DNA from: Spirochaetes bacterium ADurb.Bin133 | Lineage (GTDB): Bacteria; Spirochaetota; GWE2-31-10; MWDO01 | Assembly (NCBI GenBank): GCA_002070605.1 | Contig: MWDO01000024.1 | Coordinates: 1 to 40,817, forward strand | Direction: 5' to 3' | DNA: 40,817 nt | Part shown: piece after piece, positions 11,971 to 40,740 of the stretch | Layout of the letters: the number at the start of each line of letters is the position of its first letter | Position numbering within the stretch: the first letter of the stretch is position 1 | Made by a program: the position numbers and the translations under genes | Notes under the pieces: generated by a model | Database searches by the model: none | Told to the model about the DNA's origin: nothing | The model's input: the letters and a program-made list of their open reading frames with translations, nothing else

Positions 11971-12290
11971 GTATTACGTCGGGTTTTTTGGGGGCGAAAG
12001 AAAATTTGACACATATGAGCTGCATAGCCGCCGCGTCGCTCCCCGATGAAAAATGACACATATGGAGATGCATACGCGGCGCGCTTCCTGATAGAAATTG
12101 ACACATATGCGCCCCTCGGGGCTTGATAAGAAAATTGGCGCATATGTGTCGAATTTTTCTACGACAATTGTCGCGCGCTATCGACCCGCCGCGTCCCGAT
12201 AAAAATGGGAATTCACGTTTCGAATATACTAAAATACTAAAACATCCTTCATATATGTCATTTTCCCACCCCAAAAAACCGACGGATTAC
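11971..12290. mobile_element. TIR-bounded CATATG element 2 (320 bp)
   Basis: The left end (11971-11995, GTATTACGTCGGGTTTTTTG) and right end (12268-12290, CCCCAAAAAACCGACGGATT) are imperfect inverted repeats of each other and match the ends of the elements at 14390 and 20017. Inside are CATATG cores at 12012, 12059, 12104 and 12141, a GCGACAATTGTCGC-type palindrome at 12161-12174, and the second copy of the 66-bp repeat (12187-12252). No flanking direct repeat is evident. It sits exactly after the TAG of the hydrogenase-like gene. No protein-coding gene is supported; short open frames across it come from the repeat itself. Confidence 0.75.
12187..12252 (+). repeat. 66-bp dispersed repeat, copy 2
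   Basis: This matches 1086-1151, with the identical 20-bp core GAATATACTAAAATACTAAA and a GGGAATTCACG start in place of the perfect palindrome of copy 1. It lies inside element 2, between the CAATTG palindrome and the right inverted end. Confidence 0.75.
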
Positions 12291-14307: not shown

Positions 14308-14389
14308 TATTAACTCCTTTTTAATAATTAACAATAGCCCATTGTAATAGTTTTCTGTACATATGTCAATTTTTTTTTATTTATTTATT

Positions 14390-14528
14390 GTATCCCCGTC
14401 AGTTTTTTGGGAAATTAAAAGTATTTGTTTCATATGTGTCATTTTATTTGTCTCATATGCGTCGAATTTTTCATCAAAGAGCGCTTACGGCGCATATGCG
14501 TCATTTCCCCGCCCCAAAAAACTGACGG
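14390..14528. mobile_element. TIR-bounded CATATG element 3 (about 139 bp)
   Basis: The left end GTATCCCCGTCAGTTTTTTG starts at 14390; the right end CCCCAAAAAACTGACGG ends at 14528. A 13-bp direct repeat TTATTTATTTATT lies directly outside each end (14377-14389 and 14530-14542), as expected of a target-site duplication, though the AT-simple sequence weakens this. Inside are CATATG cores at 14431, 14454 and 14493. The right copy of the duplication contains the stop codon of the lipoprotein gene 14530-15750, so the insertion left that reading frame intact. A further CATATG (ACATATGTCAAT) lies outside at 14360. Confidence 0.75.
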
Positions 14529-14529
14529 A

Positions 14530-15750
14530 TTATTTATTTATTTCATTCGTCAAAAATTTCAAAAAATCTTTTTCGCCGACTTGACCTTTTGAGAAGGCGT
14601 CGACGGCGTCGTAATAACCTTGAAAAAATCTTTCTTGAATTTTGGAAGAATAGAAGTAAGGTTCGACTAGTTTCGTCAACTCGCGTTTTATATATTCCGA
14701 CGTTTTGGATTCTATCGAATCGTTCGTCGCGTCAAAAATTTCCGCGTAGATCGGAATATGAACGTATTCATAAAATTCTCTATGTTTTAAAGTTGTCTCG
14801 TATAAAAATTTCTGCGTTTCAAATCCAAGCAAATAATCGATAAATAAAAGAGATTTTCTGCTCGTAAACGAATTTTTTGAAACGGCGACTACTTTTTTTT
14901 TCAAAGAGCCGAATTGTTGATCTTCAATAAATACGATCTTATAATCTTTTCCGTAAGACAACGCTTTGGACAACCTGATAAAATCGTAATTCATAATCCG
15001 TTTTTTTACATAAAAACTTTTATCGACATTTTTATAATAATCAAAATACTTTTTAGTAATATCGATCCCCTTATTGTATAAATCGTCGTATTTGAAATAG
15101 AAATTATAAGCGAAGTTTTCCGCCTGTCCGTTAAAGCTATAATAACCGTTTTCCTTTTTTAGTTTTGCGTTAAGAATAAAAAGGTAGTCGAGTCCGTCGG
15201 TAATCGAACCTAACGGGCTATATGAAAGAGTAACGTAAGAGTTAGTATTTTCATCAAATACGCTGTTTTTTTTATTTATTTCTATAAATTCGTTTATATT
15301 CAAACTGTTAGGAGTATTATCGAATTCAACAGATGGAATTGCTTTTAATACAAAAAAATCTGAAGAATAAGGTATCGACAAATAACGGGAATTTGCTATA
15401 TAACTTTTTACCAGATTGGAAAAATTCTTGTTATCGATTATCTCTTTGTCGATTTTTTTATACTTTTTAGAATTTATAGGAACGTCTGCGTAATAACTTC
15501 CGGCGATTATATCTACGTTTTTCAAGTCGTTTGCGTTGTAAGTTTTAAAAATATTCCCCGATTTATCGTTAAAATATAGGACGTTTACGCGGCGTTCATG
15601 AAATGTTTTGTTATACTTTTCTACGACGTCGTACAGTATTACGTCGTCGGTTAACAAATTTACCTCTCCCGAATCGTAAAAACAACCGGAGAAAACTGCT
15701 ATCCCCATAACGGTTATCGCTATTTTTATAGTCGTCAAAAAATTTTCCAT
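14530..15750 (-). CDS. solute-binding-protein-like lipoprotein, 406 aa
   Basis: The signal peptide ends in a lipobox (VFSGCF). The body alternates strands and helices. Segments such as DVIAGSYYAD, the Tyr/Ser-rich RYLSIPYSSDFFVLK and PLGSITDGLDYLFILN recall family-1 extracellular solute-binding proteins, with a C-terminal helical region (QERFFQGYYDAVDAFSKGQV). This is fold-level resemblance, not a firm family match. It is followed on the same strand by the sugar-type ABC ATPase, with element 3 inserted between. The last codons and stop lie in the duplicated target site of element 3. Confidence 0.65.
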   Translation of the reverse strand: MENFLTTIKIAITVMGIAVFSGCFYDSGEVNLLTDDVILYDVVEKYNKTFHERRVNVLYFNDKSGNIFKTYNANDLKNVDIIAGSYYADVPINSKKYKKIDKEIIDNKNFSNLVKSYIANSRYLSIPYSSDFFVLKAIPSVEFDNTPNSLNINEFIEINKKNSVFDENTNSYVTLSYSPLGSITDGLDYLFILNAKLKKENGYYSFNGQAENFAYNFYFKYDDLYNKGIDITKKYFDYYKNVDKSFYVKKRIMNYDFIRLSKALSYGKDYKIVFIEDQQFGSLKKKVVAVSKNSFTSRKSLLFIDYLLGFETQKFLYETTLKHREFYEYVHIPIYAEIFDATNDSIESKTSEYIKRELTKLVEPYFYSSKIQERFFQGYYDAVDAFSKGQVGEKDFLKFLTNEINK

Positions 15751-19932: not shown

Positions 19933-20016
19933 CCGTTCTCCGTTTAAATAAAACATTATATACTATCATTATATACTATATAGAAGATTTTTGCAAAAGT
20001 AAATTATATATGTATT

Positions 20017-20248
20017 GTATCCCGTCAGTTTTTTGGGGAATAGAAAATATCTGTTTCATATGTGTCAATTTTATTCTTAACGTCATATGCGTTGAATTTT
20101 TATGCGACAATTGTCGCGCGTTATCGACGCGACGCATATGTGTCAATTTATATCGGGGAACGTCGCCGCGTCCCATATGTGTCAAATTCTCATCGACGAG
20201 CGCTGCGACGCATATGCGTCGAATTTCTCCCCCCCAAAAAACTGACGG
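20017..20248. mobile_element. TIR-bounded CATATG element 4 (232 bp) with 14-bp direct repeats
   Basis: The left end begins GTATCCCGTCAGTTTTTTGG at 20017; the right end is CCCCAAAAAACTGACGG ending at 20248. A perfect 14-bp direct repeat ATTATATATGTATT flanks them at 20003-20016 and 20249-20262. This is the best target-site duplication in the window. Inside are CATATG cores at 20057, 20084, 20135, 20174 and 20211 and the palindrome GCGACAATTGTCGC at 20104-20117. It lies in the promoter space between two divergent genes. No transposase or other gene is inside. Confidence 0.85.
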
Positions 20249-20284
20249 ATTATATATGTATTCTGTAAATATCCAAAATTCTTT

Positions 20285-20313
20285 TTGATTTATTTTAATA
20301 AATGGTATATTGT
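20285..20313 (+). promoter_or_regulatory. possible promoter of the DOMON gene
   Basis: TTGATT (20285-20290), a 17-bp spacer and TATTGT (20308-20313) lie just downstream of element 4 and 28 bp before the start codon. The match is moderate in AT-rich DNA. Confidence 0.4.
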
Positions 20314-22503: not shown

Positions 22504-22680
22504 TCTACGCATATGCGTCGAATTTTCTATCGAGGAGCGACGCGGCGCGTATAGCTCCATATGTGTCATTTTTATGCGACAATTGTCGCGTCGTTCTCCG
22601 ACAAATTAATTTGACACATATGTGTCAAATTAATTTGCGATTAAACCCGTCGCATATGCGTCCAATTTACCGACGCGCGC
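22501..22680. repeat. CATATG repeat island 5
   Basis: This fills the gap between the convergent lgt and TPR-lipoprotein genes. CATATG cores lie at 22510, 22558, 22617 and 22653, with GCGACAATTGTCGC at 22576-22589. The spacer ATCGAGGAGCG followed by a CGCGGCG stretch at 22529-22546 recurs at 40701-40720 and, inverted, in island 1. No clear inverted ends of the element type were found. A 36-bp perfect palindrome lies inside (22602-22637). Confidence 0.82.
22602..22637. repeat. 36-bp perfect palindrome centred on CATATG
   Basis: Each 18-base half (22602-22619 and 22620-22637) is the exact reverse complement of the other. The core TTGACACATATGTGTCAA (22611-22628) is the full-length symmetrical form of the dispersed motif, extended on both sides by AT-rich arms. 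It could form a cruciform or bind a dimeric protein. It sits between convergent genes but lacks the T-run of a normal terminator. Confidence 0.92.
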
Positions 22681-29097: not shown

Positions 29098-29601
29098 ATG
29101 ACTAAATCAAACCGTCTTTTTCATTTTATCGTATCGAAAAATATTAATTGTCGCATAGACTTTTTAAGAGAAAACCTCAATATCAAGAGTAATTGCGAAT
29201 TATTCGATTATATCATCGAGAAAATATCAAAAAATATGCCAAAATTAAAAGAAATTATTGGAGATCATAAATCTGAATACGATTTTATAGATACGGAAGA
29301 TAGATCAAGAATAGATAAATACGTAAGATTAAATGAGAATAAATACAAAACATTGAAAAAATGGCATTATTTGTTCAATGAATATGGAATATCTGTAATT
29401 TTAAGAGATATTATTAAATTTTTCTATGAAGGAATAGTTAAATACGGAGCGGATAAATTTCTGGATTTGATAGATAAAAATTTGAATTTGCATAAGATTA
29501 AATATGCTATGAAAAATATTTTGACACATATGATGAAAATCTCCATAAAAAAAAGGCTCCTTTATTCCACAGTAGTCCAAAATTTACTAGACTATTCGTA
29601 A
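29098..29601 (+). CDS. double ribbon-helix-helix-like DNA-binding protein, copy A
   Basis: A 167-residue protein, roughly 40% identical by eye to the product of 38124-38639. The N-terminal part reads as strand (LFHFIVS), helix (CRIDFLRENLN), turn, helix (ELFDYIIEKIS), the ribbon-helix-helix pattern. A second such unit seems to follow near residues 80-118: strand KYVRL, helix YKTLKKWHYLFNEYG, helix LRDIIKFFYEG. Conserved linker: IIGDHKSEY. The fold is my reading from pattern and must be tested. Unusually, its coding sequence contains the repeat motif TTGACACATATG at 29521-29532. AGGAG precedes the ATG. Confidence 0.7.
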   Translation: MTKSNRLFHFIVSKNINCRIDFLRENLNIKSNCELFDYIIEKISKNMPKLKEIIGDHKSEYDFIDTEDRSRIDKYVRLNENKYKTLKKWHYLFNEYGISVILRDIIKFFYEGIVKYGADKFLDLIDKNLNLHKIKYAMKNILTHMMKISIKKRLLYSTVVQNLLDYS

Positions 29602-37836: not shown

Positions 37837-37910
37837 AGCCCTCCCCCGTTTTCCCGAAAAAATATTAACATCGAATAGTTAAATTGTCAAACAAAAAAAA
37901 ATTATTTTGC

Positions 37911-38672
37911 GCGTCCGCGGTTTTTTGGGGCGGAAGCAAATTGACACATATGATGTTAAGGATGAAATTGACACATATGAGACGCGTCAACAACGCGCGA
38001 CAATTGTCGCATAGAAATTGACACATATGAAATATTTTTTTTATTTTTTTAAAATTATGCAAATTTTTGTATAACGTTTTCTACTTTTAGTTGTTATATA
38101 TATAAAAAAAAGGAGAAAATTTTATGAAAAACAAAAAACATCTATTTCATTTTATAGTATCCGAATCTATGAATAACAACGTCATAGATTTTTTACTAAA
38201 AGAGTTCAAAATTAATACATTTAGCGAGTTATTTGAAACTATGTTTCGCCTTATTGACAAAAAAATCTCAAAAATGAAGAGAGTAATCGGAAATCATCGC
38301 TCTGAATACGCCGTTATAGATAATACAGACGATAAAAGGGTGGATAAATACCTTAGAATCAGGGAAGCGGATTATCTCAAAATTAAAAGATGGCATTCTT
38401 TGTATAACGAATTCGGTATGGCTTCGACGGTTCGAGATATTATACTGTTTTTCTATAACGGCGTTATGAAGTACGGGTTGGAAGGATTTCTTGAGATTGT
38501 TGGAAAGGAATTAAGGATTGATAAATTGAAAAACGACTTTTTGGGTAAAATGACACAACTGTTAAATATAACCGCCCGAAAACAGCTATTATACGAACTC
38601 GTAATTGAAAATTTTCCCGAATACGTCTACTGTACGTAAGATTATTACCATTCCCCCAAAAAAACTGCCGGG
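37911..38672. mobile_element. TIR-bounded CATATG element 7 carrying a double-RHH-like gene
   Basis: The left end GCGTCCGCGGTTTTTTGGGG (37911-37930) and right end CCCCCAAAAAAACTGCCGGG (38653-38672) are diverged versions of the inverted ends of elements 2-4. A 9-bp direct repeat TTATTTTGC is found at 37902-37910 and 38677-38685, close to the ends. Inside, near the left end, are CATATG cores at 37947, 37974 and 38024 and GCGACAATTGTCGC at 37997-38010; then comes the gene 38124-38639. It is the only element in the window with a gene inside, so it may be the full-length form from which the shorter ones derive. Confidence 0.65.
38124..38639 (+). CDS. double ribbon-helix-helix-like DNA-binding protein, copy B
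   Basis: A 171-residue paralogue of 29098-29601. First RHH-like unit: strand LFHFIVS, helix NNNVIDFLLKEFK, turn INTF, helix SELFETMFRLI. Second: strand KYLRI, helix ADYLKIKRWHSLYNEFG, helix TVRDIILFFYNGVM. Most conserved between copies are LFHFIVS, IGNHRSEY, RWHSLYNEFG and RDII.FFY. RHH proteins bind palindromic operators as dimers; two units in one chain could act as a pseudo-dimer. It sits inside a TIR-bounded element next to three CATATG sites, which suggests autoregulation. AAGGAG precedes the ATG. It has no nuclease or HUH motif, so it is not a recognisable transposase. Confidence 0.72.
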   Translation: MKNKKHLFHFIVSESMNNNVIDFLLKEFKINTFSELFETMFRLIDKKISKMKRVIGNHRSEYAVIDNTDDKRVDKYLRIREADYLKIKRWHSLYNEFGMASTVRDIILFFYNGVMKYGLEGFLEIVGKELRIDKLKNDFLGKMTQLLNITARKQLLYELVIENFPEYVYCT

Positions 38673-38688
38673 TTATTTATTTTGCTAC

Positions 38689-40646: not shown

Positions 40647-40740
40647 GTAACTCGCCGGCTTTTTGGGACGTGGGAATCGACGCATATGTGTCAATTTTTC
40701 ATCGAGGAGCGCCGCGGCGTATATAGCCCCATATGATGCT
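40647..40740. repeat. CATATG repeat island 8 (one inverted end seen)
   Basis: It begins with a left-end-like GTAACTCGCCGGCTTTTTGG (40647-40666), then CATATG cores at 40683 and 40730 with the shared GC-rich spacer ATCGAGGAGCG (40701-40711). No matching right end is found before the window stops. The second core reads CATATGATGCTAAGG, close to CATATGATGTTAAGG in element 7 (37947-37961). Confidence 0.7.

Follow-up and report, generated by a model that had tools for sequence, protein, structure and literature searches.

The locus and its features

The window examined here is a stretch of 40,817 bp from Spirochaetes bacterium ADurb.Bin133 (contig MWDO01000024.1). Near its middle, the 14-mer ATTATATATGTATT occupies positions 20003–20016 and again 20249–20262, around a 232-bp segment (20017–20248) carrying the inner inverted ends CCGTCAGTTTTTTGGGG (20022–20038) and the reverse complement CCCCAAAAAACTGACGG (20232–20248). 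Sequence and coordinates of these perfect repeats around what is here called element 4 are as given in an initial annotation, which also reported a 13-bp repeat at a second element, element 3; this repeat, TTATTTATTTATT, does stand on both of its flanks. The repeats had been taken as the mark of an insertion with a target-site duplication of 13–14 bp. The following features were assigned (positions in the window):

11973–12290 (outer limits approximate), unstranded: related element with less well-kept ends (left GTCGGGTTTTTTGGGG, right CCCCAAAAAACCGACGGATTAC)
14381–14389, forward strand: left 9-bp duplication TTATTTATT of element 3
14390–14533, unstranded: element 3, MITE-like, of the same family as element 4
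14534–14542, forward strand: right 9-bp duplication TTATTTATT of element 3
20008–20016, forward strand: left 9-bp target-site duplication copy ATATGTATT of element 4, from the position-by-position match profile of family copies
20017–20038, forward strand: left terminal inverted repeat of element 4, GTATC followed by CCGTCAGTTTTTTGGGG (GTAAT and GTATC are the commonest tips among 104 copies)
20017–20253, unstranded: element 4, 237 bp, MITE-like, without transposase and with internal CATATG palindromes, from sequence and single-strand fold
20232–20253, reverse strand: right terminal inverted repeat of element 4, CCCCAAAAAACTGACGG followed by ATTAT (consensus tip ATTAC)
20254–20262, forward strand: right 9-bp target-site duplication copy ATATGTATT of element 4, from the same match profile
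29098–29601, forward strand: diverged ORF171 homologue (167 aa, 42% identical), outside any recognised inverted-repeat element
37902–37910, forward strand: left copy of TTATTTTGC, the 9-bp duplication that flanks the coding element
37911–38676, forward strand: coding family member, 766 bp, with no counterpart at the orthologous sister-species site
38124–38639, forward strand: ORF171, a 171-aa gene for a predicted tandem ribbon-helix-helix DNA-binding protein
38677–38685, forward strand: right copy of TTATTTTGC, the 9-bp duplication that flanks the coding element

Family ends and the unit of duplication

With up to three mismatches allowed, the end motif occurs six times in the window against an expectation of 0.07. 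Across the 2.99-Mb genome the pattern CCCCAAAAAACNGNCGG has 132 exact matches, compared with none for the reversed control, and exact copies of the inverted-repeat core number 148 in this genome and zero in 12 relatives. From the window and from further stretches of the same genome we assembled 104 non-redundant paired-end copies, whose left and right flanks were compared at all offsets, with shuffled flanks as the control.

A single clear optimum emerged, with the edge of the element 5 bp beyond CCGTC and nine duplicated bases directly outside it. The inverted repeat reaches 5 bp further out than the inner ends (GTAAT or GTATC followed by CCGTCAGTTTTTTGGGG in the paired copies), giving terminal inverted repeats of 22 bp, of the GTAATCCGTCAGTTTTTTGGGG type, with the ends GTAATCCGTCAG. 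At this tip offset (5/5), a 9-bp repeat was exact in 22 of the 104 copies, compared with 0.23 for shuffled flanks, and exact or with one mismatch in 29, compared with 0.44. The edges of the duplication are sharp in those copies, positions 1–9 matching in 93–100% of cases and positions 0 and 10 in 14%, and the duplicated bases are 77% A+T.

In-register repeats of at least 8 bp were seen in 40 copies (8 bp in 12 copies, 9 bp in 20, 10 bp in four, 11 bp in one, 13 bp in two and 14 bp in one), half of which were exactly 9 bp long; the other 64 copies, with no such repeat, are old or mispaired. A fixed length is thus what the alignment of genome copies, proposed in the initial annotation, brought out, at 9 bp and not at the 13–14 bp that had been claimed. 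Only three of the 104 copies reach 13–14 bp, and each time the surplus bases fall within the tip of the right inverted repeat. In elements 3 and 4 this tip is ATTAT, matched by chance against a left flank rich in A and T. The 14-bp repeat of element 4 consists of an inner duplication of 9 bp and of an outer ATTAT that is not duplicated: by chance, the right inverted-repeat tip equals the 5 bp to the left of the target. Among 3,000 random pairings of left and right flanks, none gave a 14-bp repeat and three gave 13 bp, so the repeat as a whole is not a chance match, yet it is not the unit of duplication either. Because the right tip of elements 3 and 4 ends in T and not C, the duplication there may be 10 bp.

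Copies of the family range from 83 to 1203 bp, most of them from 83 to 420 bp. They are short, dispersed in large number and without a transposase gene, and have terminal inverted repeats and a duplication of fixed length, as expected of MITEs. We found no description of this family in the literature.

Empty sites in a sister species

No exact family end occurs in G001, a congeneric sister species with about 87% identity where the two genomes align; its ORF171 records match the MAG Go_SlDig_bin_318. For two members of the family its orthologous sites hold a single copy of the target, the outcome that the initial annotation had named as a check on insertion. One is a 100-bp copy in stretch L075, flanked by ATTTATTT on both sides in the filled site; the sister sequence reads AAGAATA ATTTATTT ATAAAATTTTAT (the last beginning ATAAAA), with one target copy, which supports a duplication of 8 bp, or of 9 bp with one change. 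The other is the coding element at 37911–38676, where the sister species has AATTCTTTTGTCGCTTGAC, with one diverged copy of TTATTTTGC and no element. Together with the 9-bp repeats fixed over many copies, these two empty sites bear out the reading as insertions with target-site duplication. For a cluster in stretch L073, the comparison with the sister species gave no clean empty site.

The gene to the left of element 4 was not found in the sister genome, and the empty site of element 4 was therefore not found there either. The evidence from the family supports a 9-bp reading of element 4, which implies an empty site of the form ...TTATATATGTATTCTGTAA... with one ATATGTATT (locus 19950–20300). 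With few gene copies and no exact family ends, the sister species shows roughly the ancestral state, so that the expansion of the family can be dated and tested.

The ORF171 homologue at 29098–29601 sits in a 3-kb stretch that is 87% identical to the sister species. Elsewhere (L140 1–1159 and L147 3036–4195), both species have an ORF171 element next to shared flanking DNA, but its side or its orientation is reversed between them, owing either to inversion or to independent insertion.

ORF171, the gene of the longer members

ORF171 has 55 near-full-length copies in the genome, including the one in the window, and sits inside family elements wherever ends can be recognised. All copies but one (54/55) are free of stop codons, a state that a simple neutral simulation predicts for about 3% of copies at this divergence. 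Over 28 copies dN/dS was 0.11 at a mean dS of 0.45; between nearest neighbours among them, dS was 0.17–0.41 and dN/dS about 0.15. Since neutrality predicts so few stop-free copies, resident copies appear, from their sequences, to be under purifying selection, which is unusual for the cargo of a mobile element. Alternatively, the genes may stay intact because a few active copies keep replenishing the family while dead ones are quickly lost. A clear duplication survives in few coding copies (TTATTTTGC in the window, GGAGTAAA in L096 and, judged by eye, AGAAATCAG in L132), and most coding copies are accordingly older than the short ones.

Structure prediction, based on an alignment with distant homologues, gave two strand-helix-helix units (strand 5–13, helices 14–28 and 33–55; strand 72–80, helices 81–93 and 99–127) with a mean pLDDT of 73.8, rising to 94 in the first unit and about 90 in the second. 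On this model, the protein would be a tandem ribbon-helix-helix and probably binds DNA. Structural matches were weak, the best being AcaB and chains of the F-plasmid relaxosome (PDB 6n8a, 9f0x; E 0.06 and above), and the family had no convincing match in Pfam, NCBIfam, PHROG or PDB sequences.

CATATG palindromes crowd the interiors of the elements: TGACRCATATGNGTC occurs 35 times in the window within two mismatches, against 0.24 expected, many of these hits being a single site counted once per strand. Of the ORF171 homologues in the sister species, the seven that were examined all carry GACRCATATG 120–190 bp upstream of the start. This supports, without proving, that ORF171 proteins bind the GACRCATATG palindrome, with TTGACRCATATGYGTCAA as a candidate site. 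Folded as a single strand, element 4 forms a strong branched hairpin (−89.4 kcal/mol, z −7.4).

Search for a transposase

None of the family copies read contains a recognisable transposase gene. The genome, which is 95.6% complete, has no matches to models for DDE_Tnp_1 (IS4/IS5), rve, IS66 or IS1, and no transposase with the family ends was found in a search covering five families. Nor did clustering of 567 open frames disclose a multicopy transposase near the ends: it returned ORF171, the only gene recurring inside family ends, and one other family, which did not look transposase-like. The transposase may lie in the missing part of the assembly, may have been lost, or may belong to another family.

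An IS256-type parent was considered and rejected, the candidates being a short N-terminal remnant with other ends and a doubtful C-terminal match with no family ends nearby. The remnant (L198 1429–1700; G000 C36) has GAGACTGTAAATAACTTTGTG upstream and none of the family ends; GAGACTGTAAATAACTTTGTG, which differs from those ends, is apparently the remnant's own left end.

We likewise rejected a phage origin. The 17-mer end occurs in five viral contigs, but unpaired and without the palindrome, and we therefore attribute these matches to chance; for ORF171, searches of phages, plasmids and viral contigs gave no match.

Origin of the repeats and relation to known systems

Element 4 is very probably a non-autonomous, MITE-like element mobilised in trans, with a 9-bp target-site duplication, in a family that has ORF171 as a cargo or regulatory gene. 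Most likely, the element was excised or copied by a DDE-type transposase supplied in trans; it would then have been joined to AT-rich intergenic DNA at a staggered cut of 9 bp, and gap repair would have left the two copies of ATATGTATT around it. On this reading, ORF171 would not be the transposase but cargo or a regulatory gene, and its product would bind DNA at the family's GACRCATATG palindromes. We read the family as a whole as trans-mobilised MITEs, or mobile cassettes, with a maintained DNA-binding passenger gene.

A true duplication of 13–14 bp, made by an unusual transposase, would fit the perfect repeats of elements 4 and 3 (14 and 13 bp), but it is highly improbable, given how few copies reach that length, the position of their extra bases in the right tip, and a match of 14% for the base just outside position 9. 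We find it equally hard to credit that the repeats stem from REP/BIME-like amplification of palindromes and are no transposition scar. CATATG palindromes do form the interiors of the elements as well as free arrays, and the single-strand fold is strong; against this stand direct repeats of a fixed 9 bp next to defined tips, as well as clean empty sites, and REP units are not known to have such an anatomy.

ORF171 might itself be a new small transposase, or the obligatory partner of one, with elements 3 and 4 as deletion derivatives of the ORF171 element. No other gene recurs inside family ends, its copies are nearly all free of stops and under strong purifying selection, and the coding element at 37911–38676 has a 9-bp duplication and is missing at the sister site. 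We nevertheless regard this as unlikely: the two predicted ribbon-helix-helix units leave no catalytic domain in the model, homologues in the sister species lie mostly outside such ends, one per locus, and resident copies apparently remain under selection, for which a transposase gene would have no need. More broadly, a mobile family without a transposase might be spreading a DNA-binding gene along with the sites at which its protein binds, the protein serving as transposition partner, family silencer or chromosome organiser. We consider this rather unlikely; if true, a selfish element would have rebuilt a genome-wide network of protein and sites, with some 55 intact, selected genes and very many GACRCATATG sites in a 3-Mb genome.

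Returning to the reading of element 4 as a trans-mobilised MITE, the closest parallel is MITEAba12 of Acinetobacter, which is about 110 bp long, lacks a transposase and has inverted repeats, 9-bp duplications in AT-rich DNA and many copies (PMC6382973). A 9-bp duplication is therefore ordinary for bacterial elements, and its length does not point to an unusual transposase, as had been suggested for element 4. The proportion of copies with a visible duplication is also similar, at 40% of 90 copies for MITEAba12 (PMC6382973) and 38% of 104 (at least 8 bp) for the present family. The inverted repeats of MITEAba12 differ, being 16 bp and of the GGCTTTGTTG type, and the element is attributed to a resident parent, ISAba12 (PMC6382973). 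For our family, in contrast, no parent was found, lengths run up to 1203 bp, and a conserved gene is present in the long members.

Mobile insertion cassettes such as MIC231 hold cargo genes between insertion-sequence ends, lack a transposase and are moved in trans. The present family likewise has cargo between transposon ends without a transposase, as at 37911–38676, where ORF171 lies between such ends with a 9-bp duplication outside them; unlike MIC231, it has one gene family as its sole recurring cargo, with about 55 intact copies in one genome, and no parent was found. REP/RAYT systems combine many dispersed palindromes with a linked family of protein genes, and the present family shares both traits; it differs in its inverted ends, its 9-bp duplications and its multicopy protein gene, and no features of a Y1 transposase were seen. 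AcaB and TraY are ribbon-helix-helix proteins; unlike AcaB and the F-plasmid relaxosome chains, ORF171 has no conjugation context, and no sequence relation to them was found.

Taken by itself, the 14-bp repeat comes down to an ordinary 9-bp duplication, and it is the ORF171 gene family, not the direct repeat, that makes the locus of interest. Beyond that repeat there is a bacterial MITE family of large size, with about 55 intact, predicted DNA-binding genes and no transposase found. Since mobile elements of bacteria normally decay after insertion, the preservation of an intact cargo gene at this many sites calls for explanation, candidates being selection on the host, selection on the element and selection for silencing.

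Palindromes beyond the elements

Arrays of GACRCATATG also occur outside recognisable inverted-repeat elements, at 1033–1280, 22505–22662 and 40678–40724 of the window, with a spacing of about 36–46 bp and CGCGGCGCTCCTCGAT-like spacers. Within their coding sequences, the distant ORF171 homologues hold TTGACACATATG, which encodes Leu-Thr-His-Met and repeats the word of the putative operator; it lies at about +425, counted from the homologue start, in L150–L153 and at about 29520–29530 in the window.
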